The notes beneath the pieces are model-generated. The model ran no database searches, was not told the DNA's origin, and saw only the letters and a list, made by a program, of their open reading frames with translations. Shown here piece by piece: positions 7,884 to 58,330 of a stretch of 64,000 nucleotides of DNA. The position numbers and the translations under genes are program-made. Positions within the stretch are counted from its first letter, which is position 1. Each line of letters opens with the position of its first letter. This DNA comes from Methylobacterium aquaticum (GTDB lineage: Bacteria; Pseudomonadota; Alphaproteobacteria; Rhizobiales; Beijerinckiaceae): contig NZ_CP043627.1 in NCBI RefSeq assembly GCF_016804325.1, positions 2,493,001 through 2,557,000 on the forward strand. The letters are read 5' to 3'.

Positions 7884-8164
7884 CCCAGAGAGTCGAGACC
7901 GGCCCGCTGCGGGCGCGGCTCGCGCGCCTCGCCCGCGCCGGCAGCGCGACGGCGCGGGCCCGCGCGCGGGAGACCGCGACCACGCTCGCGGCCGATATTC
8001 AGCGAGAGCTGCCCTACGGACGCGCCGAGGCGACGGAAACGCGAGCGGGCACCGCCGTCACGGTCGAGGCGCCGGGCCTGGTCGCCCGGGAATTCGGCAC
8101 CGCGACGCGCCATGCCCGGCCGGTGATCGGCCCGGCGATCGCACGCCTGATGGGGAAGGGGTGA
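7880..8164 (+). CDS. Tail completion protein, HK97 gp10-like
   Basis: 94 aa from GTG 7880, which overlaps the preceding TGA. The C-terminal half has the gp10 pattern: VAREFGTATRHARPVIGPAI, meaning an E-x-GT turn and an aromatic/Arg-Pro segment before a last helix. The N-terminus is a basic amphipathic helix. The family attaches to the head-tail interface. Ends with TGATG into the DUF3168 gene. Confidence 0.7.
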   Translation: MTQRVETGPLRARLARLARAGSATARARARETATTLAADIQRELPYGRAEATETRAGTAVTVEAPGLVAREFGTATRHARPVIGPAIARLMGKG

Positions 8165-8583: not shown

Positions 8584-8603
8584 CTTCCCACGGAGCAAAC
8601 CTC

Positions 8604-9050: not shown

Positions 9051-9057
9051 GGGTGCC

Positions 9058-35702: not shown

Positions 35703-36932
35703 CTACTTGGTCACCGCGTAGAGCGAGGCGCCGGACGCGATCGGCGAGGTGACGGTCGAGAACACGCTGAGCACCTTCTGGACCTCGGTGAAGGGGGCGT
35801 TCGAGACGTAGACGAGGTCGCGGTTGCGCATCCGGAACGCCTGGGAGACGAACAGGCTGTTGGGATCGCGCATGTTGATCCGGTAGACCACCGGCACGAA
35901 GTTCGAGGACAGGAGCGGGCTGCTGGGGCGCAGGCGGCGCACCACCGAGGCCGGCTCGAACCGGAACACGAACACGCCGGCCGGATCGGCCTGGAAATCG
36001 CGCAGGCCGCCGGACTTGGCGAGCGCCTGGGCGAGGGTGATGCCCTCGGCCGAGAACGGGATCTCGTAATTCGCCCCCGTGGCGCCGACCGCCAGGAAGG
36101 TCTGGGGGTCGCGCACCAGGGTCAGCGTGTCGCCCGGGCGCAGGAAGATGTTCTCGCGCGGGTTGGAGACGACCGCCGTGAGCGGCACCGTCGCGGTGGC
36201 CGAGCCGCGTGAGAGCCGCACGAAGGTCTCGTTCACAGGCGCCGCGACCCCGCCCGCCGTGGCGATGACGTCGAGCAGCCGGTCGCCCTTCTCCGTCAGC
36301 GGCACGCGGCCGCCGCCGAGGCTGGAGGCCGGGCCGCCGCGGGCCGCGGCCAGGCGGGCACCGCCGCCCGCCGCCGCCGCCTCGCCCAGCACCGTGACGC
36401 TGGTGCTGAGCGGCGAGTTCACCGTGATGAGCACCTGCGGCTGGATCGCCTTGCCGGCGAGATCCTGCTCGATCTGCGCCTGCACGTCGGCCGCGCGCTT
36501 GCCCGCGACCTTGATGCGGCCGGCATAGGGCACCGAGATCGTGCCGTCCCGGGCGACGATCTGCTCGGGAATGCTGGAGGATTTCGAGCCGGTGGACAGG
36601 CCCCCGACCATGGGGGCGGAGAACAGGCCGCCGCTGCCGGCCTCCCAGATCGTCACCGTGACGCCGTCGCCGACGCCGATCACCGGCAGCACCGAGGGGC
36701 GGCGGTCGCCGAAGGAGGCGAGCAGACTGTCGAGGGGTCGGCCGCGCAGGGCCTCGACCACCGCGGCGTCGACGTCGACGATCTCGTAGCGGGCGAGCAG
36801 GCCCTGGTCGGTCGCCACGTCGGCGCCCTCAACGACCGCGCTCGCCGTCGGCCCGGCCGCGGGCAGGAAGCTGCTGCATCCTCCGATGAGGCAAGCAGCC
36901 GCCAGGACCGCTGGCATACCGACGCGCACCAT
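35703..36932 (-). CDS. Polysaccharide export lipoprotein (Wza/KpsD-like)
   Basis: 409 aa, ATG 36932 with GGAGGG 6 nt upstream. Lipoprotein signal VLAAACLIGGCSSF with the lipobox Cys. A polysaccharide export domain (about 75-170: VIGVGDGVTVTIWEAG, then RDGTISVPYAGRIKVAGKRA) is followed by SLBB-like segments (VTVLGEAAAAGGG and FLAVGATGANYEIPF). Such proteins form the outer-membrane channel for capsule or exopolysaccharide. KpsS/KpsC-like genes lie next door, so capsule export is the likely job. Confidence 0.88.
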   Translation of the reverse strand: MVRVGMPAVLAAACLIGGCSSFLPAAGPTASAVVEGADVATDQGLLARYEIVDVDAAVVEALRGRPLDSLLASFGDRRPSVLPVIGVGDGVTVTIWEAGSGGLFSAPMVGGLSTGSKSSSIPEQIVARDGTISVPYAGRIKVAGKRAADVQAQIEQDLAGKAIQPQVLITVNSPLSTSVTVLGEAAAAGGGARLAAARGGPASSLGGGRVPLTEKGDRLLDVIATAGGVAAPVNETFVRLSRGSATATVPLTAVVSNPRENIFLRPGDTLTLVRDPQTFLAVGATGANYEIPFSAEGITLAQALAKSGGLRDFQADPAGVFVFRFEPASVVRRLRPSSPLLSSNFVPVVYRINMRDPNSLFVSQAFRMRNRDLVYVSNAPFTEVQKVLSVFSTVTSPIASGASLYAVTK

Positions 36933-37616
36933 GCACCACCCTCCAAAAACCACCCGGGCCGCCCGCGACGGCCCTGCCGGTCTTCCCGCTCCATCGATGC
37001 CGGCGCACCGGCATCCGTCCCGTTCGATCGTCCGGCGCGATGGGGAGCCGGTCGACCTGCGGCCGAACGCGGCCACGCTTCGCCGCTCTTCCCTAGCATC
37101 CCGCCGGCCCTTCCGGGATGCGGGGAGCGATCAACGCGGCGCTCCGCGCCCATAAGCGGCACCGGTGTTGCACGGGGCCCACGTCTGAAGGACCGGACAC
37201 CGGCACCTCGGCCGCAAATGCGTCGCGAGCGTGGCGGCAGGGGCACCGGCTGTGGCGCGAGGGCAACGTCGCCTGGGGATGGCGTGTGAATCGCGGGAAT
37301 AAGTCCCGCCCCGTCCACGTTCCTGCCCAGATCATCGGCCTAATGGCGGCATCCGCCCACCGGACGATCGCGACGGCCCCCGCCGCGGTCGCACGATGGT
37401 GGCCCTGCGATTTTTCGTGAGTGTTGCAGGCTTGCCATTGTCCGCACCGGTCCGGGCGGTACTGTCCGCGTCGTCAGCGGCTCGCGCGCGAGGATGCGCG
37501 CCCGAATGTCCGTCCGGGCAAGCTGGCAGCAGCGTGCTCGGGCCTTCGCCGTCTTAAGGGCTCCACCGGCAGGCCGCGCCCGGTCGCCGGATCCCGCCCA
37601 GAGCCGAGGTGTGCCC
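36933..37616. other. 684-bp gap without a convincing gene
   Basis: Separates the divergent export lipoprotein and KpsS-like genes. Open frames here are Arg-rich and lack ribosome sites, as expected from high GC. A short palindrome GCGGGAATAAGTCCCGC lies near 37293-37309. Both divergent promoters should be here, but none matches the consensus well. Confidence 0.5.
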
Positions 37617-38978
37617 GTGAGAGCTGATCCCGCGCGAACCGTCGAACCGAGCCATCAGGATACCCGCCATCAGGATGTCCGTCCGGGCCGGCGCCAGGTG
37701 TTCCTGTTCCTGCAGGGCCCGATCACGCCGTTCTTCGCCCGGGTCGCCGACGCGCTGGAGGCGCGGGGTCACCGCTGCCTGCGGGTGAATCTCTGCTTCG
37801 GCGACTGGATGTTCTGGCGCCGCGCCGGCGGGGTGAATTTCCGCGGCACCCGCGAGACCTGGCCGGCCTTCATCGCCGACCTGATCGACCGCGAGGGCGT
37901 GACCGACCTGATGCTGCTCGGCGAGCAGCGCTACTACCACAAGGTCGCGGTCGCCGCCGCCAAGGCCCGCGGCCTGAACGTCACGGTGACGGATTTCGGC
38001 TACCTGCGTCCGGACTGGATCACGCTGGAGCGCGACGGCATGTCGGGCGACAGCTGCTTCCCGAAGGACCCGGAGGCGGTCCTGGCGCTGGCCGCCCAGG
38101 CGCCGGAGCCCGACCTGGTGCCGCGCTACCGCGACAGCTTCTGGCTCCAGGCGGTCTGGGACATGGCCTACCACCTGATGAGCAACTGGCTCTGGTGGCT
38201 CTATCCCGGCTACAAGTCGCACCAAGTGCATCACAACGCGCTGATCTATCTCGGCACCGCCCTGCACATGCTGCGCTCCAAGCGCACCGGCCCGCGGGTC
38301 GACGCGCTGGTGCGCCGCCTGCGCGAGGCCGGCACGACCTATTACGTGCTGCCGCTGCAGATGGAGAACGACTTCCAGCTGCGCGCCTACTCGCCATTCT
38401 TCGACCTGAAGACGCCGATCCACGCGGTGATCCGCTCCTTCGCCGAGCACGCGCCGGGGGAGTCGCGCCTGCTCGTCAAGATCCACCCGCTGGATCCGGG
38501 CATCCGGAACTGGGCGCGCATCGTGCGCCGCTCGGCGGAGAAGTGGGGCGTGTCCGACCGGGTCGACTTCGCCGATGGCGGCGACCTCGGTGCGATGCTG
38601 GACGGCTGCCGCGGCGTCGTCACGGTCAACAGCACCGTCGGCCTGTGGTCGATGCGCGCCAACAAGCCGACCATGACGCTCGGTGCTGCGATCTACGACA
38701 TCCAGGGCCTGACCTACCAGGGCGCGCTGGAGACGTTCTGGACGAAGGCCGAGGCGCCGCGGCGCGACCTCTGGGACGCCTTCATCAAGGCGATCGTCGC
38801 CAACATCCAGATCCGCGGCGTCTACTACAAGAGCGAGGGCATGGCGGCGGCGGTGGAGGCGACGGCCTCGCGCCTCGACCTCACGCAGGGCGCGTGGCTC
38901 GAGGTCCGCTCCCGCGCCCGCACCACGCCTGAGACCGGCGACGACCTGCCGGGCATCGAGGCGCTGCAGAACGCCTGA
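37617..38978 (+). CDS. kpsS: Capsule polysaccharide protein KpsS-like (predicted beta-Kdo transferase)
   Basis: 453 aa from GTG 37617 (GAGG 7 nt upstream; GTG 37611 is too close). Residues 25-60, QVFLFLQGPITPFFARVADA, are the KpsS/LipB opening. Later family pieces are GEQRYYHKVAVAAAKARGL, VTDFGYLRPDWITLERDGMS, the KIHPLDPG motif and GVVTVNSTVGLWSMRANKPT. KpsS adds the first Kdo of the linker to the lipid acceptor of group 2 type capsules (knowledge). A terminator follows, so transcription is independent of kpsC, which is convergent. Confidence 0.88.
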   Translation: MRADPARTVEPSHQDTRHQDVRPGRRQVFLFLQGPITPFFARVADALEARGHRCLRVNLCFGDWMFWRRAGGVNFRGTRETWPAFIADLIDREGVTDLMLLGEQRYYHKVAVAAAKARGLNVTVTDFGYLRPDWITLERDGMSGDSCFPKDPEAVLALAAQAPEPDLVPRYRDSFWLQAVWDMAYHLMSNWLWWLYPGYKSHQVHHNALIYLGTALHMLRSKRTGPRVDALVRRLREAGTTYYVLPLQMENDFQLRAYSPFFDLKTPIHAVIRSFAEHAPGESRLLVKIHPLDPGIRNWARIVRRSAEKWGVSDRVDFADGGDLGAMLDGCRGVVTVNSTVGLWSMRANKPTMTLGAAIYDIQGLTYQGALETFWTKAEAPRRDLWDAFIKAIVANIQIRGVYYKSEGMAAAVEATASRLDLTQGAWLEVRSRARTTPETGDDLPGIEALQNA

Positions 38979-39010
38979 CCGCGACAAGTCACCGAACGAG
39001 AATGAACCCG

Positions 39011-39037
39011 ACGGGGCCGGCAACGGCCCCGTTTTTT
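39011..39037 (+). terminator. Rho-independent terminator after kpsS-like gene
   Basis: ACGGGGCCG (39011-39019), loop GCAA, CGGCCCCGT (39024-39032), followed by six T. Confidence 0.9.
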
Positions 39038-39075
39038 CATGGCGAAGGGCTGCCCACGCGCTCGGGCCGCCGCCA

Positions 39076-41043
39076 TCATCCCCGCCGCAGCACGCGGCGC
39101 CAGATCACCGACCAGACCTGCTTGAGCACGGCCTCGGGCGTGCGGGCACGGCGCGCCAGCTCCGGGTCGCCCTCGGCGAGGCGCTGCACCAGAACCTCGG
39201 GCGGGCAGGGCAGGCCGGTGCGCGGGTCGACGTAGCGCGGGTAGAGGATCAGGGCGCCGGCCACCAGTTCGTCGAGCGTCAGGCGGCGGGTGCGGCGCGG
39301 GCAGCCCGGATCGTCGGTGAGGCCCCAGCCGGCATAGAAGGGCAGGCCGTGGGTGGTCACGGCCTTGCCGCGCATGAGCGCCTCGAATCCGATCAGCGAG
39401 GTCATCACCTCGACCCGGTCCGCCGCCTCGATGGCGTCGATCGCCGAGACGTCGCGCAGGACCACGTCGGCATGGGCGGCGAGCTCGTCCGGCGGCACCC
39501 AGCCGGGACGCAGGCCCGCCTCGACGTCCGGATGAGGCTTGAAGGCGATCACGGCCCCGGGATTGCGCTCGCGGGCCAGCCGCAGGAGCGCGGCGTTGCC
39601 CGAGACGGTCGCACCGCCGAAGCGGATCGAGGCGTCGTTCTCGACCTGGCCGGCGACCAGCACCACCGGGCCCGGCCGCGGCATCGCCGGCATCGCGGCG
39701 CTGCCGACATTGTACTTGCTCACCCGTGCGGCGACGACCGCCTCCCGCAAGGCGGCCGCCCGGGCGAGGAGATCGCCGGAGAACGTCCCGGTCTCGAGCA
39801 GGTGCTCGAGGTCGCTCGGGCCCGTGGCGTCGTAGTAGACGCCGGTGGCGTCGAGGACGTGCGAGGCGCCCGGCCGCAGGGCGACCCCGAGGCCGATCGA
39901 GCGCAGGAAGCCGTCCTCCATCCGCAGGAGCGGCAGGTCGGCGGCACGACAGGCGGCCTCGAGGCCGTCCGGCATCCGGCTGGCCCAGGCCACGACGCGC
40001 CGGACCTGCGACAGCTCCGCCGGCGTCACCGGCGCGTCGCCCCGGCGCACGACCGGGCGGTGGCCCGGCGCCGAGAGAGTCCTGGTGATCCAGTCCCGCT
40101 TCCAGGCCGAGAACCCGACGCAGAGGGTCGGCACCGCATTCTCGCGCCAGCGCGACGCGATGAGGGCAAGCGTCGCGACGGCGTCCTCGAACCGGGCCGG
40201 CGCCCCCGAATAGGGATCGAAATAGCGCGAGCAGACGAGGTAGGCGGCGGCGAAGACCTCGTCCGGCCGGCGATGGCGGGTGCGCCGGGGCAGGTGCAGC
40301 CGATCGTCGGTGAAGCCCCAGCCGGCATAGAAGGGCAGGCCGAAGCAGGTCACCGGCGTACCGGCGAGCGCCGCCTCGAAGCCGGCATGGGCCGAGACGA
40401 CGTAGACGCGGTCGCAATCCTCGGCCACCGACCAGGCGGTGACGGGACCGCTCACCAGGCGTGCGCCGGCCGCCTCCGCCGCCGCCGCGTCGATATGGCC
40501 GCGCCGGCCCACGGGAGCGGCGGGATCCATCACCACCAGGCGCTCGGCCTCCGGCGCGTCGGCGGCGGCGGCCGCCAGCATCGCCGTAAAGGCGCTGGCG
40601 CCGGCGAGGCCGAAGCCGACCGTCGGATCGCCGGCCGCCTGGTCGACGATCACAACCCGCCGGCGGGCTCTATCCGTCCGCGCCGGCAGGTCGCGGCGGC
40701 GCGGGTCGTTGTCGAGGCTCAGCCGCGCCTCGCGCAGGCGCGCGATGCCGTCCCGGGCGCGGGCCATCAGCTCATCCGATTCCCAGCCGCCCTCCTCGAG
40801 CATCACCTCGAGCTCGCTCGGTGCCGTGGCATCGTAATGGATGCCGAGCCCGTCGATGATGTAGCTCATGGACCGGTCGGGCCGGGGATCGCCGAGGCGC
40901 AGGAAGCCCTCGTCCCACCGGTCGCTCAGCCGCACCCGCCGCGAGGTCGGCTCGCTGCCCAGGCGGCGCGAGCGCCGCGGACCGGGCCCCTCCGACTCCG
41001 AGGGCATCCGGGGCCACAACCGCTTCAGCTTGCCGCGATCCAT
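39076..41043 (-). CDS. kpsC: Capsule polysaccharide protein KpsC-like, two-module
   Basis: 655 aa from ATG 41043 (GAGAGG just upstream). Two homologous modules are evident from repeated motifs. DEGFLRLG and IDGLGIHYDATAPSELE in the first match MEDGFLRSIGLG and LDATGVYYDATGPSDLE in the second. GLPFYAGWGFTDD and GLPFYAGWGLTDD each close a module. FKPHPDVE is the HP motif. This is the KpsC/LipA build, a dual Kdo transferase that extends the linker between lipid and capsule. The N-terminal module is shorter and less conserved than the second (it lacks a clear HP motif). Confidence 0.88.
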   Translation of the reverse strand: MDRGKLKRLWPRMPSESEGPGPRRSRRLGSEPTSRRVRLSDRWDEGFLRLGDPRPDRSMSYIIDGLGIHYDATAPSELEVMLEEGGWESDELMARARDGIARLREARLSLDNDPRRRDLPARTDRARRRVVIVDQAAGDPTVGFGLAGASAFTAMLAAAAADAPEAERLVVMDPAAPVGRRGHIDAAAAEAAGARLVSGPVTAWSVAEDCDRVYVVSAHAGFEAALAGTPVTCFGLPFYAGWGFTDDRLHLPRRTRHRRPDEVFAAAYLVCSRYFDPYSGAPARFEDAVATLALIASRWRENAVPTLCVGFSAWKRDWITRTLSAPGHRPVVRRGDAPVTPAELSQVRRVVAWASRMPDGLEAACRAADLPLLRMEDGFLRSIGLGVALRPGASHVLDATGVYYDATGPSDLEHLLETGTFSGDLLARAAALREAVVAARVSKYNVGSAAMPAMPRPGPVVLVAGQVENDASIRFGGATVSGNAALLRLARERNPGAVIAFKPHPDVEAGLRPGWVPPDELAAHADVVLRDVSAIDAIEAADRVEVMTSLIGFEALMRGKAVTTHGLPFYAGWGLTDDPGCPRRTRRLTLDELVAGALILYPRYVDPRTGLPCPPEVLVQRLAEGDPELARRARTPEAVLKQVWSVIWRRVLRRG

Positions 41044-41345
41044 CCGCCTCTCACTCACTGCGGACCGTGCCCGCCCAGCCCTGCCCGCCCAGGCGATGCA
41101 ACCCGGAGCAGGGGCCGTTCCATATCGCTCCGGCCCCGTCAAGCACGCGCCCTGTGCGCACGAGACCGGACCTCGACGGGTCCGATCCTGTCCTGCACCG
41201 GTTTTCGTTAAAGTCGTTCTGATTTTTCCGGTCCCGCCGTTACCGGAATTTTCCGCGCTCGACGAGGGCCGCCGTGCTACACGCGCGGGCCGTGCCGCCG
41301 CGTCCCGATCGATACCGGAGAACCGTCCTTGCCGGAGAACCGCTC
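41044..41345. promoter_or_regulatory. Divergent kpsC/SDR control region with inverted repeat
   Basis: TTCCGGT (41226-41232) and ACCGGAA (41242-41248) form a perfect inverted repeat with 9-bp spacer in an AT-rich patch (about 41205-41252) between the two divergent genes. This is the expected place for an operator. At 41315-41348 a 17-bp unit, CCGGAGAACCGTCCTTG, is directly duplicated with two changes; the second copy supplies the ribosome site and TTG start of the SDR gene. Confidence 0.4.
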
Positions 41346-42119
41346 TTGCCCGTCATCCTGATCACCGGCGCCTCGAGCGGCATCGGCGCGGCCCTGGCGC
41401 AGCATTACGCCGCCCCCGGCGCGACCCTGGTGCTGAACGCCCGCGGGCCCGAGCGCCTGGAGGCGGTGGCCGACCTCTGCCGGCGCAAGGGCGCCGCGGT
41501 CGAGACCCGGCCCCTCGACGTGCGCGACCGGGACGGCGTGCGGGCCTGGATCGGCGACGTCTCCCGGCGGCTCGGCCTCGACCTCGTCATCGCCAATGCG
41601 GGGGTCAATGGCGGCCATCCCGAGGGCGGCCTGGAGACCGAGGAGACCGCCTTCCTGGTCCTCGACGTCAACCTGATGGGCGCCCTCAACGTGGCGCTGC
41701 CGGCGGTCGCCCTCATGGCCGAACGGGGCAAGGGCCAGGTCGCGCTGATCTCCTCGCTCGCGGCCTATGCGCCGCTCCCCGACGCGCCGGCCTATAGCGG
41801 CACCAAGGCGGCGCTGCTCGCCCACGGCCTGGCGCTGCGCGAGAAGCTGGCGCCGAAGGGCGTACGGATGAACGTGGTCTGCCCGGGCTACGTGAAGACC
41901 GCGATGGGCGCCGATTACGAGGGCTGGCGCCCGCTCGAGATGAGCGCCGAGGCGGCGGCGAGGCGCATCGCCAAGGGGCTGGCCCGCGACGAGGCGGTGG
42001 TCGCCTTCCCGGCGGCGCTGGCAGCCGCGGCGCGGGGCGCCGCGCTGATCCCGGAATCCTGGCGCCGCCTCGGCATGCGCGGCTTCAGCTTCCGGATGAG
42101 CGAGCGCCAGCAGCGCTGA
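41346..42119 (+). CDS. Short-chain dehydrogenase/reductase, RkpH-like
   Basis: 257 aa from TTG 41346, with GGAGAA 8 nt upstream; the protein begins PVILITGASSGIGAALAQ, the NAD(P) motif. NAG is in LVIANAGVNGG, the catalytic Ser in VALISSLAAY, and Tyr/Lys in APAYSGTKAALLAHG. The general fold is that of 3-ketosphinganine or 3-oxoacyl reductases. In S. meliloti an SDR (RkpH) lies with an AOS (RkpG) in the capsule locus; here the AOS is 1.1 kb away. Predicted job: reducing the keto group of the AOS product (inference). Confidence 0.8.
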   Translation: MPVILITGASSGIGAALAQHYAAPGATLVLNARGPERLEAVADLCRRKGAAVETRPLDVRDRDGVRAWIGDVSRRLGLDLVIANAGVNGGHPEGGLETEETAFLVLDVNLMGALNVALPAVALMAERGKGQVALISSLAAYAPLPDAPAYSGTKAALLAHGLALREKLAPKGVRMNVVCPGYVKTAMGADYEGWRPLEMSAEAAARRIAKGLARDEAVVAFPAALAAAARGAALIPESWRRLGMRGFSFRMSERQQR

Positions 42120-42148
42120 CCCTGACGGTTATGGAGACGTAAAGTCCG

Positions 42149-42997
42149 GTGCGGATCGCCCTGTTCACCCTCGAAGCCCTGCCCAACGCCCGGGCCGTGC
42201 GCCGCTTCGTCGCCGACAACGCCGCGCGGATCGCCTTCGTCGGCCTGTCCGACCCGGAGCGGCCGAGCACCGGCGGGCTCGCCGGCCAGGTGCGGCGCCA
42301 TCTCGGGCGCTCCGGCCCCGGCTTCCTGCCGTACCTGGCGGTGAATTTCGGCCTGCCCGACCTCGTCCGGGGGCTCGCGCCCGCGACGCAGGCGCTGTCG
42401 GGCAGCCGCGACGTGCCGGAGGCGACGCCCCTGCGCACCTTGTGCCGGCGCCTCGGCCTGCCGCACGCCACCATCACCGACGTGAACGGGCCGGAGACGA
42501 CCGGGCTCTTGCGGGAGCACGGCGCCGAGCTGATCCTGTCATTCCATTTCGACCAGATCTTCGACGCCGCGACCCTGGCGGCGGCCCCGAAGGGCGGGCT
42601 CAACGTCCACCCCTCGCTGCTGCCGCGCCACCGCGGGCCGGTGCCGACCCTGCACGCGCTCCTGGAAGACAAGCCGGATTTCGGCGTCACGGTGCATCGG
42701 CTGGCCCCGGCGATCGATGCCGGCGGGATCCTGGCGCAGGCACCGGTGGCGCTGCCCGAGGGCGTCACCGCCTCGCGGGCGGCGATCCTGCTGCACGAGG
42801 CCGGGCGGCCGCTGCTGGAGGGGGTTCTGGCCGAGGCCGAGCGGGCGGGCGCGCTGCCGGAGGGGCGGAGCGTCCCGGTCCTGCCCTATTGCGGCTTCCC
42901 GACCCCGGCGCAGCTGCGTAACTTGAAACGGCGGGGGAGGCGGCTGGTCGATGCGGGGGATCTGAGGGAGGCGTTGAGCCTGTCGCTCAAGCCATGA
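42149..42997 (+). CDS. Formyltransferase-family protein
   Basis: 282 aa from GTG 42149, 29 bp after the SDR and likely co-transcribed. The formyl transferase core is visible: ELILSFHFDQIFDAATL, then GGLNVHPSLLPRHRGPVPTL with the catalytic Asn and His, and VHRLAPAIDAGGILAQ with the conserved Asp. The N-terminal 90 residues differ from methionyl-tRNA formyltransferase, and no C-terminal tRNA-binding domain is evident. Enzymes of this kind formylate amino groups using formyl-tetrahydrofolate. Next to an AOS route to an amino lipid, the amine could be the target (inference). Confidence 0.8.
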   Translation: MRIALFTLEALPNARAVRRFVADNAARIAFVGLSDPERPSTGGLAGQVRRHLGRSGPGFLPYLAVNFGLPDLVRGLAPATQALSGSRDVPEATPLRTLCRRLGLPHATITDVNGPETTGLLREHGAELILSFHFDQIFDAATLAAAPKGGLNVHPSLLPRHRGPVPTLHALLEDKPDFGVTVHRLAPAIDAGGILAQAPVALPEGVTASRAAILLHEAGRPLLEGVLAEAERAGALPEGRSVPVLPYCGFPTPAQLRNLKRRGRRLVDAGDLREALSLSLKP

Positions 42998-43050
42998 GCG
43001 GGCGGCATCGCGAATGCCGATACACTCCCAACTGGAATTTACCCTCCTCG

Positions 43051-43188
43051 TCATCCCGGGGCCGCGCAGCGGAACCCGGGATCCATAACCGCCGACGATG
43101 CAGGACGAGGCGGAGCGCGTTCCGATCTTTTCTGAGGCGTCAGCGGTTATGGATCCCGGGTTCTCGGCTGCGCCGAGCCCCGGGATGA
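43051..43188. repeat. Long imperfect inverted repeat between convergent genes
   Basis: Left arm 43051-43092 (TCATCCCGGGGC...CCATAACCGC) and right arm 43143-43188 (GCGGTTATGG...CCCCGGGATGA) pair over about 40 nt with a 50-nt middle. Inner near-identical blocks are GGGATCCATAACCGC and GCGGTTATGGATCCC. This resembles the short palindromic intergenic elements of Rhizobiales. It lies between the formyltransferase (plus) and AOS (minus) 3' ends and could end both transcripts. Confidence 0.75.
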
Positions 43189-43239
43189 CATTGAGGGTTT
43201 CAGATCCGCAGGAGGGGCCCAAAAAGCCTCCCCCGGGTC

Positions 43240-44604
<1,365 letters not shown>

Positions 44605-44608
<4 letters not shown>

Positions 44609-47600
44609 TGGGTGATGACCTTGATGTCCTGGCTGTTCTTCTCGACCAGCGCCTGGAGGGATTGCAGCGCCTCGGCATCGGCCGATTCGACCCCGCCATG
44701 GCGCTGCGACAGGCTGACCACCGCCGCCGCGCTCTCGTCGACCGGGGCCGCCACCGACTGGATCAGGGTGTCGGCGAGTTCGGTCACGGTCTGGCCGCTC
44801 GACACGCCCGACGGCGGCGCGTCGAGGCCGAAGCGCTCCTGCAGGCTGGCGCCGAGCTCGACGCCCATGAGCGAGTCGAGGCCGATCTCCGAGAGCTGGC
44901 GCACCCGGCTGATGTCGTCCTTCGGCAGGCGCAGGATGCGGGCGATGTCCTCGACGATGGCGTCCGCCACGGTCTTGCGGACGTCGTCGAGGTCGTGGGC
45001 GCGGAGCAGGCCCGGGATGCTGATCGCGACCTGGCCGCCGGCCTCCGCCTGCTGCTCCGAGCCGAGGCTGGCGTAGCTCGGCGAGCGTAAGGTAGCCAGG
45101 CGCTCGCGCGCCTTGCCCCAATGCATCGCCGCAATCGCGATCACCGCATCGTCGGGCGCCGTGCCCTGCACGCCCAGTGCCTCGGCCATCAGGTCGAGGG
45201 ACTTGCGGGCATCGACCGGGGTGACGCCGACGCGGCCGGCCAGCGTCTCCATCACCGCCTTGTTGCGGGCGAGCACGCCGACATCGCCGATGGCGCCCCA
45301 GGCCACCGCCAGGGCCGGCAGGCCGAGGCGGCGGCGCTGGCGGGCGAGGCCCTCCATGAAGCCGTTGGCGGCGACGTAGGAGCCCTGGCCCGGATTGCCG
45401 ATGAAGGTCGTGGCCGAGGAGAACAGCACGAAGTAGTCGAGCGCCCGATCGCGGGTCAGCGCGTCGAGATGCCCGGCACCGGTCACCTTCGGGGCGATTA
45501 CCGCCTCCAGGGCCGCCGGATCGAGGTTGGCGATCAGGCCGTCCTGCAGCACCATCGCGCCGTGGATGATGCCGGCGAGCTTGACACCCTTGGCTTCCAC
45601 CCGCCCCAGCAGGCGCTGGACCGAAGTCCGGTCGGTGATGTCGCAGGATTCCACCTGCACCGAGACGCCGCGGGCCGTGAGCTCGGCGATGGTCGAGAGC
45701 GCCGGTTCGCCGGTCGGCGCCTTGCGGCCGACGAGCGCGATGTGGCGCGCGCCCCGGTCGGCGAGCCAGCGCGCCGCCTCGATGCCGAAGCCGCCCAAGC
45801 CCCGGTGACGAGGTGGACGCGGTCGGGCGCCACCACGAAGGGCTTCGTCGTCTCGGCCGGGATCGTGCCGGCCTTCGGCGGCGCGATCACGATCTTACCG
45901 ACGTGACCCGATTGCTGCATCAGCCGGAAGGCGTCCGAGACTTCTTCCGCCGCGAAGGGCTGGTAGGGCAGCGCCTTCAGGCTGCCGTCGGTGAACAGAG
46001 CCATCACCTCGCGGAACAGCCGCTTGCCCTCGTCGGGCTGGAACTGGAGCAGCTGGTCGAGGTCGACGCCGAAATACGACAGGTTCCGGCGGAACGGCCG
46101 CAGGCCGATATGGGTGTTGGCGACGTAGTCGCGCTTGCCCAATTCGACGAAGCGCCCGAAGGGCTTCAGCGAATTCAGGCTGCGCTCCATCGCCTCGCCG
46201 AACAGGCTGTTGAGCACCACGTCGACGCCGTCGCCGGTGATGCGGCGGATGTCGTCGACGAAGGCGAGCGAGCGGGAATCGAGCACGTGCTCGGCGCCGA
46301 GCGCCTTGACGAGCGCCCGCTTCTCGTTCGAGCCCGCGGTGGCGATGACCCGGGCGCCGCGCATCCGGGCGATCTGGAGCGCCGCGAGGCCGACGCCGCC
46401 GGCGCCGCCATGGACCAGCACCCACTCGCCGGCCTTGAGGCGGGCGAGCGTGACGAGGCCGTAGAAGGCGGTGAGGAAGGCCACCGGCGTGGTGGCGGCG
46501 GCCTCGGAGGACAGCCCCTGGGGAGCCGCCGCCACGACCATCTCGGGCACCACGATGTGGGTGGCAAAGCCCGACTGGGCGAAGGCCACCACCCGGTCGC
46601 CGGGCTTGAACGCGGTCACGCCTGCACCCACCGCGGCGACGCGGCCGGCGCATTCGAGGCCGAGCCGCGGGCCGGCAAAGCCGTCCTCGAGGATCTCCTC
46701 GGGCAGCATCGACAGGGCCCAGAGCACGTCGCGGAAGTTGAGGCCGGTGGCCTCGACCGCGATCTCGATCTGGCCGGGGCGGGCGCGACGCGCTCGGCCG
46801 GGCCCCAATGCATCTCGTTGAGGCCGCCGGTGGTGCTGCGCTCCAGCCGCGCGGCAGGCGCCGCCGGACCGGACCGCCGGGCGGAGCGGGCGCCCTGCGA
46901 GAAGCGCACCACGCGGGTGGCGTCGTCGTCGACCACGATCTCGGTCTCGGCCGTGCCGGACAGGATCAGGTCGCGCAGGCGCTCCGCGGCGCGCTTCGAG
47001 GAGATCGCCGTCGAGAGGTCGATGCGGCGCACGTCGAGGGAGGCGACCTCGTTGGCGAGGGTCCGGGTGAAGGCCCAGATGCCGGCCTCGACGCCGCAGG
47101 CGAGCCCGCCGCGGTCGCGGGTGGCGCCGGGGCAGACCACCCAGAGCCGGGTCGGGCGGGTGCCGAGATGCTCAACGCAGCGCTTGAGCCCGAGGCAGCG
47201 CTCGCGCAGCCGCTCGGCCGGCTCGCCGCCGCGGTTGAACGCGCCGGCGAGGTAGACGACCGTATCGGGCGTCTCGCGCTCCAATTCGCGCAAGGAGGCC
47301 TCGGAATCGAGGATGATCGAGACGTGGACCCCGCTCGCCACCAGGAGCGTGGCCAGAGACGAGGCGGTCTCGGCCGCGAACTCGTCCTCGGAGCCGATCA
47401 CGAAGGCGAATGTCTGGCCGGCCGCCGCCTTCGGCCGCGGCGGGGCTTCCGCGAGCAGCAGCAGGTCGTTGCCGTTGCGGGTGACGGCGCGGTCTGCCGC
47501 GACCTTGACGAGGCCCACCGCGCTCAACGAGCGCTGCCAGCCCGCCACGTCGTCGAGGCGGCCGACCGGAACGTCGCCGTCGGCGTCGAACCAGCCCGCA

Positions 47601-50600
47601 TCGAGGCCGAACACCATGTCGCGGAACAGCGAGGCGCCGGGCTCGACCGCGGCGAACAGGCCGCCGGCCGCAAGGCTCGAGGCGAGCGGGCTGAAGAGGT
47701 CGCGGGAGGCGCGGTGGAGCACGTCGCTCGCCAGCACCGCGTCGAAGGCGGCGTGGCCGAGAGCCGCCGGATCCTCGACGATCGTGACGCCGGCAGGCAG
47801 GGCGAGGCGGGCGCGCTCGGCGAGGCGCCGGTCGGCCTCGAACACCGTCAGGCGCGCTTCGTGCAGGCCGGCGAAGGTCGCGACCTGGGCCGAGAGCGGC
47901 CCGAAGCCGACCTGGAGCAGGCGGAGCGCCCGGTCGCGCGGCAGCGACGCGGCGCTCTCGGTGAGGAGCCGCATCACCGCATCGGCCGAGGCCCGCACGG
48001 TGGCGCCGCGCAAGGAGAACGCATCGAGCGCCGCCTGGGGCAGGGACGGGGCGTCGGCGAGCGAGCCGGCCAGCACCCGCGACACCACGGCGCCAAGATC
48101 GGCGCAGAGCAGCAGCTCCGCCGACAGCTCCGGGTGATCCGCCGCGATCCAGCGCATGATCTCGTCGGGCTCAGGCAGCGTCACGTCGGCGCGCAGGCGC
48201 CAGCGTCCGTCACCCGCGGCATCGGCGAGACCGCTGACCTCCAATGCCAGGAGCTGGTTGACGAGCCAGGGCCGCAGGGCCGCCGGCAGCCGGCGCGAGG
48301 CCGCGACGTCGACGACGCCGCCGACCGCGAGGCCGCGGGCGAGCCGATCGGCGAGCGAGGTCGCCCAGCCTTCGAGCAGCATGTGGCCGGCGCCCAGAGC
48401 CGCCTCGCCGGTCGCGGTGACCGAACCGGCCTGACGGCGGACCAAGGCCGCGACGGCCGGCTGCGGCTCCAGCGCGATCGCCGTCGGCTCGGTGGCGAGC
48501 TCGGTGAACTGGCGGATCGCAAAGGCGTCGAGGTCGTTGCCGCCCTTCATCCGCAGGGCCTGGAACCGGCCCTCGCGCAAGGTGGCGATCACCTCGCCGG
48601 CCTCGTCCACCAGGGTGAAGTCGGCCAGGATGCTGCGCTCGTTGCAGCGCCGGGTGCGGATCACCGCCCGGGCGATGGCCGCGCCGGGGCGCACGAGCCG
48701 GATCTCGCCGAAGCGGATCGGCACGTAGGCCCGGCTCGCCGCCTCGCCGAGGAGATCGGCGAAGAGCAGGATCAGGCCGTGGAAGCACGAGTCGAGGCGC
48801 GCCGGCGCCACGCCGTAGCGGGCATGGGCCTCGGCGGGCACCAGATCGGAGACGATGGTGACGTCGTCGAGCCGGGCCGAGCGGGCGACCTGGCGGAAGG
48901 ACGGGCCGAAGCCGAGGCCGGAGGCCTTGGCGCGGGCGTAGAGCGCCTCACCCTCGACCGTGGTCTCGGAGGGCAGGGCGGCCATGTCGCGGCCGGTCAG
49001 GCGCGGCGGCAGCGGCGTCTCGCCCTCGACCAGCTTGGCGACGGCGTGGAGCTGCCAGGGCGCCTGGCTCAGGCGCGGCCGGGACAGGATCTGCACCAGG
49101 TTGGCGCCCGGCGAGAACCGGCACAATACCTCGCGCACCGCGTCCTCGGCGAAGACCATCGGCTGCTGGATCTCGAGATCGGCGAGCGTCACGCTCTCCG
49201 AGCGCACGATCTCGCGGCCGACCGCCAGTGCCATCTCGGCAAAGCCCGCGCCGGGTAGGATCGCCTGGCCGTCGATGCGGTGGTCGTCGAGTTCCGGCAC
49301 CGTCGCGACGTCGAGATGGGCCAGCCATTCCAGCCCGTCCGAGCCCTGGCGGGCCCCGATCAGCGGGTGGTAGGGCCGGGCGCTCGCCGGGTTCACCGCC
49401 TCGGTGGTCTCAGGGAGACGGAAGACCTTGCGCTGCCAGGGGTAGTGCGGCAGCGCCACGCTGCCCGCCGGATCGGCGCCGAAGGCGACCACCTCGTCGA
49501 TCGCCGCACCGGCGGCGAGCGCCGCCGCCAGCGCGCGGCGGAAGGGGTCGGCCTCCAGGGTCTTCTTCGGCAGCACGCCGACGGTGGCGCCATCAAAGCC
49601 GAGCGGCTCGAGGCAGTCGCCGATATGCGGCAGCAGGGTCGGGCGCGGGCCGACCTCGACGAAGATCCGGGCGCCGGCTTGCGCCGCGGCCTGGACCGCC
49701 GCGCTGAAGCGCACCGGCTCGCGGATGTTGCGCCACCAGTAGCCGGCGTCGAAGGCGGCGCCGTCGAGCACGTCGCCGGTCACCGTCGAGGCGAGCGGCA
49801 CGGTGCCGGCGGAGGGCGCGAGCCCGGCGAGGTCGCGCCGCAGGGGCGCCTCGATCGGGTTCATCAGCCGGCCGTGGAAGGCGTAGTCGAGGTCGAGCTT
49901 GCGGCCGCGGCGGCGCTTGCGGGCGAGCGCCTTCATGGCGGCGTCGATCGCCGCCACGGGACCCGCCACCGTCACGGCCTTCGGGCTGTTATAGGCGGCG
50001 ATGTCGAGTTCGGGGTAATCGACGAGGAAGGCCTCGACCTCCTCGACCGGGGCGAGCAGCACCGCCATGGTGCCGAGCCCGCGGGTCGCCTCCTGGTGCT
50101 TCGAGCGGTAGAAGATGACCTTCACCGCCTGTTCGAGCGTCAGGATGCCGGCGGCTTCCGCCGCGCCGATCTCGCCGACCGAGTGGCCGACGATCGCGGT
50201 CGGCGTGAGACCCACGGCCTTGAGCGCCGCGGTGGAGGCGGCCTCGATGGCGAAGATCAGCGGCTGCGACACGCTGGTCAGCGCGAGGCGCTTCTCCAGG
50301 TCGTCGGCGAAGAGGGCGTCCTTCAGCGACCAGCCGGCGAGCGGCTTGAACAGCGCGTCGGCCTCGTCGAAGCGGGCGCGGAAGACCGGGTTGAGGGCAT
50401 AGGCGTCCCGGCCCATCCCGGCCCATTGGCTGCCGTTGCCCGAATACACGAAGGCGACGCCGCCGGCGCGCTCGACCGCGGTGGCGACGACCGCCGCCGG
50501 GGTCTCCTCGCCCTCGGCGATGGCCCGCAGGGCCTCGGCCACGTCCCCGGGCTTCAGGTCGGAGAGCGGGATCGCGGCGCGGACCGGCAGGCGCTCGCGG

Positions 50601-52048
50601 CGATGGGCCGCCGCCGCGGCGACGCGGGCGATCTCGGCCGCGTCGGCCCCGTCGAGGCGGGTGGAGTAATCCTGGGCGAGGTCGGCCAGGGCCGCCTTGG
50701 TCTGGGCCGAGACCAGCAGCACTTCCGGGGCCGGCTGCGCCGACGCCGCGGCAGCCGCGACCGGCGCCGGATCGGTCAGGATGACGTGGGCGTTGGTGCC
50801 GCCGAAGCCGAACGAGTTGACGCCGGCGAAGCGCTCCGCACCGGTGCGGGGCAGGGGGCGCAGCTCGCGGTTGACCGCGAGGTTCAGCTCGTCGAACGGG
50901 ATCGCCGGGTTGAGCTCGGCGCTGTGCAGCGAGGGCGGCAGCAGGTCGTGCTCGAGCGCGAGGCTGGCCTTGAGCAGGCCGGCGAGGCCGGAGACCGGCT
51001 CGGTATGGCCGATATTGGTCTTGATCGAGCCGATCGGCAGGGGCGTCGCGCGGCCGCGGCCGAGCTTGCCGCCGATGGCGCCGGCCTCGATCGGGTCGCC
51101 GACGGGCGTGCCGGTGCCGTGCGCCTCCATGAAGGCGATCGAATCGAGGGCGACGCCGGCCTCGCGGTAGATCTCCTCCAGCAGCGCGCCCTGGGCGTAG
51201 CCGGAGGGCAGCGAGATGCCGGTGGTGCGGCCGTCCGAATTGACCTTCGAGGCGGCGATCACGCCGCGCACGGTCGACCCGTTGCGGGCGGCGGCCGCCG
51301 CCGATTGCAGCACCAGGACGACGCCGCCCTCGGCGCGCACGTAGCCGTCGGCGGTCGCCGAGAAGGCCTGGCACAGGCCGGTCCGCGACAGCATCGAGGC
51401 GTTGGAGAACGACACGAAGTTAAACGGGCTGACCAGCAGGTTGACGCCCGCCACCACCGCCGTGTCGATCCGCCCCGAGGCGATCGCCGCCACCGCGGCG
51501 TCCAGCGCGACGAGGGACGACGAGCAGGCGGTGTCGAGGGTGAAGCTCGGCCCCTTCAGGTCGAAGATGTAGGAGATGCGGTTCGACAGGATCGACAGCG
51601 TGTTGCCGGTCGCCGCGTAGGCGTCGCCGGAGGCGGTGTCGAGCACCCGCAGGTTGCCGTAATCGAGCGAGGAGGCGCCCACGAACACGCCGATCGGGCT
51701 GCCGGCCACCGCCGACGGCCGCATCCCCGCGCTCTCGAGCGCTTCCCAGGTCAGTTCCAGCAGCAGGCGCTGCTGCGGGTCCATCTGCTCGGCCTCGCGG
51801 GGCGAGATGCCGAACACGGACGGGTCGAACGACCACGGATCGTCGATGACGCCGGCGGCCCAGGTGTAGCTCTTGCCGCGCTCCTGCGCCCGGGGATGGC
51901 CCATGCGCTCCAGGGACCACCGGTCCTCCGGGATGCGCGAGACGGCGCACCGTCCCTCGATGAGCATCTGCCAGAGGCTGTCGACGCCGGAGGCGCCCGG
52001 AAGCCGGCAGGCCCGACCGATGATCGCGATGTCAGGACGCTGTATCAC
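44605..52048 (-). pseudogene. Highly reducing type I polyketide synthase (RkpA-like), two frameshifts as sequenced
   Basis: GTG 52048. Frames: 52048-46616, 46808-45534, 45798-44605. One base added at the runs 46776-46779 and 45800-45803 gives 2481 aa. Domains: KS (5-425; Cys175 in DTACSSS, His310, His348), AT (530-830; Ser623 in GHSVGE, YAFH suggests malonyl-CoA), DH (890-1190; His923 in HRIDGQAILP), a methyltransferase-like/structural region (1250-1740; nucleotide loop QVGFGPLSAQ looks degenerate), ER (~1750-2060; VLVHGGAGGVGLAALQIA), KR (~2080-2260; FSSATTFIGNPGQGSYVAAN) and ACP (~2393; GLDSLMGVEL). No thioesterase: the coupled AOS probably releases the chain. Same domain order as fungal fumonisin-type PKS. 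Confidence 0.88.
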
Positions 52049-52463
52049 GTTCGATTCGCTACACGCTCATTTACGGAGGACCGGACGCGACGGCGCCGCA
52101 TCCGGGCATTCAACCCAACCCATAGTATGACGCCCGCGCCGCGCCAACCCCGGGACGGCGCGAACCATCCCGAAGACGCAAGACTTGGTCCAAGTGTGGC
52201 ATACCTTCATCAGTCAAAGTCCTGCCGCTCGACCAGGGACAAAGCCCTGACATGCGACACAACACTGTCATCGAGAAGATTTGCCAGACCTCGCACACCG
52301 TCCGATCGAGCTTGACGCGACCCGGGCCGGACCGGGGCGCGCCGGATCCGTTAGACCCGACGAATCGGGTCGCAATGGGGCAGGCCGGGGCGGGAATCAC
52401 CCGTGCTGGAGCAGGCCACGATCGCGCTGCAACCGTGACGTGCTCCAAGTTTTTGTCTTTGCC
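52049..52463. other. Upstream region of the PKS gene with operator-like palindrome
   Basis: About 370 bp before the next repeat with no gene. ACTTGG-T-CCAAGT at 52183-52195 is a perfect 13-bp palindrome. CAGGGA...CCCTG near 52233-52249 is a second short symmetry. The base composition around 52190-52300 is less GC-rich than its surroundings, consistent with a promoter region for the PKS-AOS operon. No clear -35/-10 pair. Confidence 0.4.
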
Positions 52464-52506
52464 GCATTTTCCGCGACGAACCGGCATCCATTCCGTCGGA
52501 AAATGC
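52415..52506. repeat. Dispersed extragenic palindrome, copy B
   Basis: Core 52464-52506: GCATTTTCCGCGACGAA pairs with TTCCGTCGGAAAATGC. CACGATCGCGCTGCAA precedes it, as in copy A at 22485-22574. It lies just beyond the 3' end of the minus-strand RAM-domain gene, the same relative location as copy A. Confidence 0.75.
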
Positions 52507-52519
52507 TCCCGCGGTTGCG

Positions 52520-52756
52520 TCAGAATGCCTTGAAGGTGATGATGGTGCGGGTATCCTGGATATCCGCGATGGTCTGCACGTGCTCGGCCACGAAATGCCC
52601 GATATCCACCCCGTCATCGACGTGGAACTTCGCGAGCACGTCGTAATGACCGGCCGTGGAGTAGATCTCGGAAGCGATCTCGCGATCTGCCAGGGCGCTC
52701 GCCACGGTGTAGGTTTTGCCCAGGCGGCACTTGATTTCGACGAAGAAGGTCTGCAT
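52520..52756 (-). CDS. Stand-alone RAM (Lrp/AsnC ligand-binding) domain protein
   Basis: 78 aa from ATG 52756 with GGGAG upstream. The whole protein is one Lrp/AsnC C-terminal domain: QTFFVEIKCRLGKTYTVASA, HYDVLAKFHVDD and TIADIQDTRTIITFKAF. It has no helix-turn-helix. Such proteins form beta-sandwich oligomers that bind amino acids or small metabolites, and some regulate enzymes or full-length Lrp proteins. It sits 113 bp downstream of ugd on the same strand, so co-expression is possible. Confidence 0.85.
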   Translation of the reverse strand: MQTFFVEIKCRLGKTYTVASALADREIASEIYSTAGHYDVLAKFHVDDGVDIGHFVAEHVQTIADIQDTRTIITFKAF

Positions 52757-52868
52757 CGGCTGGCTCCCGGCAATCGGTGGAACTGGAATCGGAATCATTC
52801 TGGAGTGTGCTGCGCACCGTCTCGCCCCCGCAACGGCAACGCTGCGTCAATCCGGGCTCTCATACCGG

Positions 52869-54173
52869 TCAGGGCCGCCCGACGCTGGCATAGGTGAAGC
52901 CGTGCCGGCGGGCATCCTCGGGCCGGTAGACGTTGCGCAGGTCGACCAGCACCGGCTCGGCCATCGCGCCGTGCAGGCGCTTGAGATCGAGGGCCCGGAA
53001 CGCGTCCCATTCGGTCACGATCACGAGAGCATGCGCGCCGGCGGCGCAGGAATAGGGATCGGCGGCGTATTCGACCTCGGCCAGGAGCGGGCGGGCCTGC
53101 TCGACGCCCTCCGGATCGTAGGCCACGATCCGCGCGCCGGCATCCTGCAGCCCGGTGATGATCGAGAGCGAGGGCGCCTCGCGCATGTCGTCGGTGTTCG
53201 GTTTGAAGGTCAGCCCGAGCACCGCGATCCGCCTGCCCCGCACCGATCCGCCGCAGGCCGCAGCGACCTTGCGGGCCATGGCGCGCTTGCGGCTGTCGTT
53301 GACCGCCACCACCGTCTCGACGAGGCGCACCGGGCTCCCCGCATCCTGCGCGGTCTTGACCAGCGCCAGGGTATCCTTGGGAAAGCACGAGCCGCCATAG
53401 CCGGGGCCGGCATGCAGGAACTTGCGGCCGATGCGGTTGTCGAGCCCGATGCCGCGGGCGACCTCCTGCACGTCGGCGCCGACCTGCTCGCAGAGATCCG
53501 CGATCTCGTTGATGAAGGTGATCTTGGTGGCGAGGAAGGCGTTGGCCGCGTACTTGGTCAGCTCGGCGGTGCGCCGGCTCGTCACCAGGATCGGGGCGTG
53601 GTTGAGGTAGAGCGGGCGGTAGAGCTCGCTCACGATCGCCGCGGCGTCCGGGTCGTCGGCGCCGATGACGACGCGGTCGGGCCGCTTGAAATCGGAGATC
53701 GCCGCGCCCTCGCGCAGGAATTCCGGGTTCGAGGCGACCGCGATGGCGACGTCCGGCCGCGCCTCGCGGACGATGCGCTCGACCTCGTCGCCGGTGCCGA
53801 CCGGCACGGTGGACTTGGTGACGACGACGGTCGGCCCGGTCACGGCGGCCGCGATGTCGCGGGCGGCCTGGTAGACGTAAGTCAGGTCGGCGAAGCCGTC
53901 GCCGCGGCGCGACGGCGTGCCGACGGCGATGAACACCGCGTCGGCGCCGGCCACGGCCTGGGCGAGGTTCGTGGTGAAGGTCAGGCGCTCCTGGCGCACG
54001 TTCTCGGCGACGAGCGCGTCGAGGCCGGGCTCGTAGATCGGGATGCGGCCGTCCTTGAGGGCTGCGATCTTTTCCGGCGCGGTGTCGACGCACACGACCG
54101 TATGGCCGAAATCCGCGAAGCACGCCCCCGAGACCAGGCCGACATAGCCCGCTCCCACCATCGCAACGCGCAT
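52869..54173 (-). CDS. ugd: UDP-glucose 6-dehydrogenase
   Basis: 434 aa. The Rossmann motif MRVAMVGAGYVGLVSGACF is at the start, AVGTPSRRGDGFADLTYV near 95, and the catalytic Cys is in GPGYGGSCFPKDT (about residue 260). The C-terminal domain has GLTFKPNTDDMREAPS. It oxidises UDP-glucose to UDP-glucuronate for acidic surface polysaccharides. In S. meliloti the equivalent gene rkpK is needed for capsule and LPS, consistent with the nearby KpsC/KpsS and PKS-AOS genes. Confidence 0.95.
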   Translation of the reverse strand: MRVAMVGAGYVGLVSGACFADFGHTVVCVDTAPEKIAALKDGRIPIYEPGLDALVAENVRQERLTFTTNLAQAVAGADAVFIAVGTPSRRGDGFADLTYVYQAARDIAAAVTGPTVVVTKSTVPVGTGDEVERIVREARPDVAIAVASNPEFLREGAAISDFKRPDRVVIGADDPDAAAIVSELYRPLYLNHAPILVTSRRTAELTKYAANAFLATKITFINEIADLCEQVGADVQEVARGIGLDNRIGRKFLHAGPGYGGSCFPKDTLALVKTAQDAGSPVRLVETVVAVNDSRKRAMARKVAAACGGSVRGRRIAVLGLTFKPNTDDMREAPSLSIITGLQDAGARIVAYDPEGVEQARPLLAEVEYAADPYSCAAGAHALVIVTEWDAFRALDLKRLHGAMAEPVLVDLRNVYRPEDARRHGFTYASVGRP

Positions 54174-56866: not shown

Positions 56867-56941
<75 letters not shown>

Positions 56942-57088: not shown

Positions 57089-57163
<75 letters not shown>

Positions 57164-57784: not shown

Positions 57785-57857
57785 TGGCTGGGGGACGTGG
57801 ATTCGAACCACGACTAACGGAGTCAGAGTCCGCTGTTCTACCGTTAAACTATCCCCA
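57785..57857 (-). tRNA. tRNA-Gln (anticodon CTG)
   Basis: Anticodon stem GCGGA/TCCGT encloses CTCTGAC, anticodon CTG; T-arm CGTGG/CCACG; CCA encoded. The 3' acceptor strand TCCCCCA calls for TGGGGGA, but the sequence has only four G (57853-57856 as CCCC), leaving a mispaired acceptor. One missing G would make the stem perfect, so a homopolymer miscall is likely. Confidence 0.92.
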
Positions 57858-58330
57858 ACGAGGTGTTTCGCGCTGTGGACCGGAGGAATTTTCCGCCCGT
57901 CCGGGGTGGCGCGTCACCGCCTCGGTGCGGTGCTGATAGGCTCGTTCGCCGAACCGGTCAAGGCCTTCTTGCGGGACGGGTGCGAAAGGGCGGGAGCAGG
58001 TCCGGATGCCGGCAGCCGACCGGGTCGAACCCGGCCGGGTCCGGTCCCCGAAAGGTTTCGGCGGGCCGGCATCCGGCCGTCCCGGTCTCCTCGACCGAAC
58101 AGGAAGGGTGAGACGGGGCAGGGCGGTGCAACGGACCGACCGTGCGACGCGTGCCGTCCGGTGGAACCGCCGACGCCCGGGCAATGACCGGTCGGGCGCA
58201 ACCACACCCTACCCACGATACACAAGTTTTCCTTGAACAGCGCATGGTTGCACTTGATGAAGGCGCACCGTGCCCGATATGCCTGGACGACTCGGAACGA
58301 ACCGGGTTGCTCAGATCGGGATGGAACCTC
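57858..58330. other. Gap upstream of mucR paralogue 2
   Basis: 473 bp. The last ~130 bp are less GC-rich and should carry the mucR promoter. From ATG 58244 the mucR frame is open, which would add 29 residues including APCPICLDD. No consensus promoter or AT-rich inverted repeat like that of paralogue 1 is obvious. Confidence 0.4.

Follow-up and report, generated by a model that had tools for sequence, protein, structure and literature searches.

What does a formyltransferase do among the genes for a capsule lipid? The question is raised by a locus of Methylobacterium aquaticum, in a stretch of 64,000 nucleotides (the window) belonging to a 7.28 Mb genome of five contigs. Its positions 35,703 to 54,173 hold genes for a polyketide synthase (PKS), an alpha-oxoamine synthase (AOS), a short-chain dehydrogenase (SDR), the 3-deoxy-D-manno-oct-2-ulosonic acid (Kdo) transferases KpsS and KpsC, and a formyltransferase (FT). 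The PKS-AOS-SDR-KpsC/S set is already known as the rkp/wcb lipid-carrier system, and the new element is FT. We read the locus, with a probability of roughly 0.53, as a capsule-lipid locus of the Rkp/Wcb type with an added FT, in which PKS and AOS would make a sphingoid-like aminolipid, FT would N-formylate it, and KpsS and KpsC would add Kdo. Observed are the genes, the invariant FT residues, the predicted fold and the linkage, and from these we infer the chemistry.

A formyltransferase family of its own

FT is encoded intact on the plus strand at 42149..42997 and matches Formyl_trans_N (PF00551). Family profile, Asn-His-Asp residues and predicted fold all place it among the PF00551 formyltransferases. 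The three residues, Asn152, His154 and Asp190 in the window protein, are invariant in 45 of 45 rows of the FT family, and we take them to be the catalytic residues of PF00551 formyltransferases. Fmt and the sugar N-formyltransferases share this fold and these residues, but FT falls below the cut-offs of their models: it scored 79.2 bits against the Fmt model TIGR00460 (cut-off 201.5), 62.2 against ArnA (cut-off 777) and 34.4 against the dTDP-amino-sugar type (cut-off 238). Its N-terminal part is distinct from both groups. On a tree, FT forms its own clade, apart from 20 Fmt-like genes of 304-313 aa, which were themselves not scanned with TIGR00460. A stray copy of Fmt is ruled out by the TIGR00460 score, the separate clade and the presence of FT throughout the genus. 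The helix at residues 57-84 is only mildly hydrophobic (mean 0.66; -0.18 to 1.58 across the rows), part of it has a pLDDT of 64-80, and in Belnapia and Roseicella it is shorter; for a lipid-binding insertion it is a weak hint at most.

Linkage of FT to capsule-lipid genes

The strongest single hint comes from the Acetobacteraceae/Roseomonadaceae, where PKS, AOS, FT and KpsS follow one another on one strand in nine of ten loci, the tenth being a 4 kb contig. As predicted from the genes, this order would place FT after the amine-forming enzyme and before the one that attaches the first Kdo. In Pararobbsia (Burkholderiaceae, one genome), a KpsC-FT pair faces AOS-PKS.

Within Methylobacterium, an FT orthologue occurs in all 37 genomes, with 92-94% identity to the window protein in the relatives G012, G015 and G020; in 24 genomes of other families in the order, a match was never more than core-only. 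The SDR lies directly upstream of FT on the same strand in 36 of 36 fetched genus loci, and KpsS and KpsC share the stretch with FT in every one of them. In the clade of the window genome (G000, G012, G015, G020, G024 and G036), the SDR has KpsC rather than KpsS as its neighbour. An AOS orthologue was present in 24/24 genus genomes searched and in 3/14 other genomes of the order that lack FT, and PKS and AOS are adjacent in all 13 genus stretches that contain both.

A broader set comprises the best 80 of 137 FT relatives, which we grouped as 53 loci of Methylobacterium, Methylorubrum and nearby metagenome-assembled genomes, 14 of Reyranella type, 10 of Acetobacteraceae/Roseomonadaceae, two of Enterovirga and one of Pararobbsia. 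At least one of PKS, AOS, KpsC, KpsS, the export lipoprotein and RkpI lies near FT in 68 of the 80. The same marker search returned 0/20 around the Fmt-like genes and 0/10 around more distant formyltransferases. In all, four lineages, one represented by a single genome, link FT to PKS, AOS or KpsS/KpsC, and the earlier note's expectation that these genes would co-occur with kpsC and kpsS elsewhere is borne out.

Wider genome samples gave a similar association with AOS. Among 385 genomes of the class, FT was found outside the genus in two, both Reyranellaceae and both among the 12 non-genus genomes with AOS (Fisher 9e-4, for 383 genomes). In 61 Reyranellaceae genomes, full-length FT occurs in 15 (a count that leaves out four core-only matches), AOS in 26 and both in 13, so that AOS accompanies 13 of the 15 genomes with FT versus 13 of the 46 without it (Fisher 1.4e-4). 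Sixteen Reyranellaceae FT loci include eight with a PKS within 3 kb and one, on a 3.8 kb contig, with an export gene. In three loci, the 3' end of a GT21/HpnI-like glycosyltransferase gene overlaps that of FT (L088 7799-8992, L089 7834-9027, L090 8166-9296); the L088 protein scores under the cut-off of the HpnI model. GT21 is a lipid-glycosylating family, the class of ceramide and hopanoid glycosyltransferases, and the end-to-end arrangement in Reyranella L088 fits a lipid acceptor. PKS and FT of an Enhydrobacter aerosaccus-type locus (L087) are separated by a B12-binding radical SAM gene at 7567-9270.

On the AOS tree, the FT label has to change at least twice. This indicates that FT was gained or lost more than once and speaks against a single origin of the FT-AOS link. 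In other lineages, 16 AOS loci (L064-L079), 15 of them with PKS, have no FT in the fetched stretch; two lie in genomes with FT elsewhere. One genome of the same family as the window (G249) has two separate PKS-AOS loci (L074, L075) and no FT match.

In a sample of 398 genomes of the phylum, 129 had an FT match at E <= 1e-22. Full-length matches were confined to the six genus genomes, and the others cover only ~64-275 of 285 positions. Around 10 core-only places, picked for the strongest match or the longest reach toward the C-terminus, with one of them located on a 3.7 kb contig, neither PKS, AOS, KpsC, KpsS nor an export gene lies nearby; a gene for UDP-glucose dehydrogenase (Ugd) lies near two. 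The FT family profile covers these 10 proteins only from about position 80 on. In both the class and the phylum scans, up to six candidates were scored per genome, so members may have been missed.

Genes of the window locus

A Pfam scan recovered every gene that the earlier note had named, each at its coordinates. A polysaccharide export lipoprotein of the Wza/KpsD type (Poly_export and SLBB; PF02563 7e-15, PF22461 1e-12) occupies 35703..36932 on the minus strand, and its orthologue is close to KpsC/KpsS in genus stretches long enough to include that position. The KpsS-like beta-Kdo transferase follows at 37494..38978 on the plus strand (PF05159, Capsule_synth, 5e-75); against the NCBIfam KpsS model it reached 1.5e-63 and 215.5 bits, below the cut-off of 600. 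The KpsC-like Kdo transferase at 39076..41142, on the minus strand, has two Capsule_synth stretches (PF05159 3.5e-61) and an uncertain start codon, and an NCBIfam scan of it returned no match. The RkpH/WcbP-like SDR is at 41274..42119 on the plus strand (adh_short PF00106 2e-41), with its true start probably near 41346. It ends 29 bases from FT, and the two genes lie on the strand opposite to PKS and AOS.

The minus strand carries AOS, of the RkpG/WcbT type, at 43240..44608, with two frame breaks within ~43,776-43,897 and PF00155 matches on both pieces. The RkpA/WcbR-type PKS lies at 44605..52048, with frame breaks near 46,770 and 45,800 and the Pfam domains KS-AT-DH-ER-KR-ACP, an order identical to that in an intact genus relative (L048). 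No thioesterase was matched by Pfam in the window pieces or in L048, in agreement with the earlier description of a reducing PKS that lacks one. The PKS stop and the AOS start overlap as ATGA in the window sequence, as the earlier note had described. Ugd, RkpK-like, is present at 52869..54173 on the minus strand (PF03721/00984/03720), as the earlier note said; it is a neighbour rather than a constant member, seen next to the locus only in stretches from the clade of the window genome.

Two KpsE-like proteins, both under the family cut-off, are encoded on contig C1 of the window genome at 396114-397163 and 1866105-1867181. The first adjoins an ABC ATPase, which makes an exporter plausible, and the second comes after an aminotransferase-type gene. 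The window further holds three tRNA genes, at 56867-56938 (+), 57089-57160 (+) and 57788-57858 (-); the first two have equal scores and may be a duplicate pair.

Proposed pathway and comparison with known systems

A one-module reducing PKS without thioesterase, an AOS directly after it, an RkpH/WcbP-type SDR and Kdo transferases of the KpsC/KpsS type bear out the assignment of the locus to the Rkp/Wcb type. In the pathway that we propose, the PKS would act iteratively to build a reduced acyl chain, kept on its own ACP, which AOS would release by decarboxylative condensation with an amino acid to give a 2-amino-3-ketone. The SDR would turn the ketone into a sphingoid-like amino alcohol, and FT would transfer a formyl group from 10-formyl-tetrahydrofolate (10-formyl-THF) to the amine, the position of the N-acyl chain in a sphingolipid. 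KpsS and KpsC would then add Kdo to the formylated lipid, perhaps with a GT4 enzyme attaching a sugar in some lineages, and the product would be the anchor of the capsule or its export handle.

In Sinorhizobium meliloti, RkpG is AOS-like, RkpH is an SDR and RkpJ is of the KpsC/S type, and the wcb lipid operon likewise holds a PKS, an AOS and an SDR. The window locus thus resembles rkp-1 (rkpA, rkpG, rkpH, rkpI, rkpJ) plus rkpK, with its PKS/FAS-like RkpA, in all these functions. According to the available part of one paper (PMC4881576), the rkp genes provide the K-antigen with a specific lipid carrier, and the corresponding part of another lists them (PMC7902896). The comparison, made through this literature rather than with S. 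meliloti DNA, shows two differences: the text seen of these two papers does not mention a formyltransferase, and the window clade lacks an RkpI-like gene. The wcb genes of Burkholderia and Cobetia (wcbP, Q, R, T) are described, in the portion seen, as a lipid-carrier operon beside kpsSC, with WcbQ LTA-synthase-like (PMC11766843); a difference from the window locus is that 'formyl' is absent from the main text of that paper.

The RkpI/WcbQ LTA-synthase-like gene lies within ~6 kb of FT in 31/37 genus genomes. It is missing in six, namely the clade of the window genome listed above, and a search of the window genome with the L078 protein gave no match; in the 80-locus set, it was not seen in 13 of the 53 Methylobacterium-type loci. 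Its absence detracts from a complete rkp-1 set, not from a system that works like rkp-1. A replacement of RkpI/WcbQ by FT is ruled out, since both stand in one locus in those 31 genomes. In the Reyranellaceae sample, RkpI occurs in 4/61 genomes and in none of the 15 with FT; mutual exclusion is not general.

Two further systems share parts of the chemistry. The swfA-type PKS of sponge symbionts has the same one-module domain set as the window PKS, KS-AT-DH-ER-KR-ACP; SwfB has reductase and sulfotransferase domains, and the authors separate SwfA from WcbR/RkpA in the text available (PMC3908369). The bacterial sphingolipid pathway of serine palmitoyltransferase (SPT), AcpR and AasR uses AOS chemistry on an ACP-bound chain (PMC9386255, seen in part), whereas in the window locus the chain would be supplied by a PKS carrying an ACP of its own. 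The intact AOS of L048 scored far below each NCBIfam SPT equivalog (299/640, 270/500 and 200/670 bits, score/cut-off), below BioF (363/426 bits) and below the other AOS cut-offs.

The earlier note knew of no counterpart for the formyltransferase step. Likewise, we found no formyltransferase in an rkp/wcb capsule-lipid pathway in the literature searched, which left out most subscription papers, including two on rkp-1. Nor did that literature contain a paper joining a formyltransferase with rkpI or one on a Methylobacterium rkp lipid; AOS, PKS and capsule came together only in a general fungal review. One genome study, as far as its text was available, reports type I PKS clusters in almost all genomes studied and other Methylobacteriaceae without a capsule transport system, and that text does not contain the word formyltransferase (PMC8561711). 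The available parts of three more papers give gene names only (PMC10752968, PMC12522445, PMC12632250).

Alternative explanations

Several observations weigh against N-formylation of a capsule lipid, beginning with the enzyme steps, whose substrates and products are predictions from gene content. The class-level FT-AOS association rests on two genomes, and 2 of the 15 Reyranellaceae FT genomes, both drafts, have no AOS match, although one has PKS pieces. Because related genomes are not independent of one another, the Fisher values make the case look stronger than it is; the 80-locus set, too, overlaps the genus and Reyranellaceae samples in many genomes and is not independent of them. Twelve of the 80 loci are without any marker gene: eight Reyranella SDR-FT-GT4 loci, a Reyranella contig end (L108), two 4 kb contigs (L151 and L173) and Enterovirga aerilata L154. 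In the last, with FT at 10001-10819, PKS, AOS, KpsC, KpsS and an export gene are all absent within 10 kb, and it is a real exception to the linkage; the scanned neighbours there include an HhH-GPD/NUDIX repair gene and an SMC-like gene. In part of the genus, PKS and AOS also lie at a great distance from FT, which for AOS exceeds 600 kb in G005, G016 and G018 (~640 kb in G005).

Such separations would suit an ordinary Rkp/Wcb capsule locus in which FT and SDR, although conserved, ride along and serve an unrelated function, and so would the 16 AOS loci whose fetched stretch holds no FT. We consider this very improbable, as FT has PKS, AOS or KpsS/KpsC for a neighbour in four lineages whose gene orders differ, and the control formyltransferases had no marker gene near them.

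FT could instead be a sugar N-formyltransferase that acts on an amino sugar of the capsule and is present because the whole locus makes capsule. Among PDB profiles it matches ArnA most closely, followed by Fmt and sugar N-formyltransferases, and structure comparison places its predicted fold near ArnA, WbkC, VioF and WlaRD. By these models, its closest relatives act on Met-tRNA or amino sugars. Glycosyltransferases are also at hand. A GT4 gene lies directly upstream of the PKS in all six Acetobacteraceae/Roseomonadaceae stretches that reach there (the first 1.4 kb of L125, L145, L153, L156, L168 and L171), three other loci starting inside the PKS, so that sugar transfer, as predicted from sequence, also occurs near FT. 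In 7 of the 16 Reyranellaceae FT loci, an RkpH-like SDR and two GT4 genes accompany FT, and the GT4 partners could glycosylate the same lipid or point to a sugar substrate. Loci of this kind, L080-L086 and L100-L107 (Reyranella, partly from the same genomes), lie away from the PKS. The sugar substrate nevertheless appears unlikely: the commonest partners of FT are PKS, AOS, SDR, KpsS and KpsC, FT is universal in the 37 genus genomes, and its scores in the sugar-formyltransferase models are far below cut-off. In addition, the flanks of the window, L153, L154 and L115 (few genes, Pfam) contain no amino-sugar aminotransferase, and the only nucleotide-sugar enzyme there is Ugd.

A role on the lipid other than N-formylation of the amino alcohol is a further alternative, whether on the amino ketone before reduction, as hydroxyl formylation or as a formyl-dependent hydrolase. 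The SDR-FT pair that the earlier note had singled out is kept throughout the genus loci, but it does not extend to the Acetobacteraceae, whose PKS-AOS-FT-KpsS stretches hold no strong SDR match, so that FT may there act directly on the AOS product. Domains of 10-formyl-THF hydrolases also share the FT fold. Known PF00551 transferases with Asn-His-Asp act on amines, however, and we judge these other roles quite improbable as a group.

A last point against N-formylation in this genome is that the window copies of PKS and AOS are broken as assembled, as the earlier note had suspected. The PKS runs over three frames, as does AOS, whose two changes fall at the positions given above. Independently of what FT does, the pathway could thus be dead here, with PKS and AOS as pseudogenes. 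Four frame breaks in ~8.8 kb, next to six neighbouring genes that are open, would agree with this. Elsewhere in the genus, the AOS orthologue is unbroken in 23/23 other genomes searched, and among 22 stretches the PKS is one open reading frame in 12 (~2490-2590 aa from stop to stop), broken in L054 and outside the stretch in nine. Most differences between the broken pieces and L028, L027, L121 and L128 fall at third codon positions, as they do in intact neighbour genes; the KpsS row of that comparison was out of register. The pieces also remain 92-96% identical in DNA to L028, an intact relative. This pattern points to errors in the sequence or to a break of very recent date rather than to an old pseudogene, and the break in L054, from another assembly, is expectable of errors in very G+C-rich sequence. 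The frame breaks are, as judged from sequence, most likely an error or very recent, and a dead pathway seems rather doubtful.

Implications for the capsule lipid

A dedicated FT that accompanies capsule-lipid genes in four lineages gives a hint of the chemistry of the lipid. Its position beside PKS and AOS implies a primary amine on the product and offers the N-formyl group as a mass tag, and the question is directly testable, since the Belnapia PKS-AOS-FT-KpsS run is small enough to express and assay. Capsules of groups 2 and 3 have a phosphatidylglycerol anchor (PMC13410964), and the linker of the Vi capsule has been described (PMC12220298), both according to the parts of these papers available. 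It is conceivable, and we put it forward tentatively, that the PKS, AOS, SDR and FT family makes a further lipid terminus in Methylobacterium, Reyranella, Roseomonas/Belnapia and relatives, an N-formylated, polyketide-derived and sphingoid-like one primed by KpsS/KpsC, which would stand beside phosphatidylglycerol-Kdo and the Vi-type acylated hexosamine. The presence of FT beside capsule-lipid genes in Methylobacterium and some other bacteria suggests a capsule lipid capped with a formyl group.

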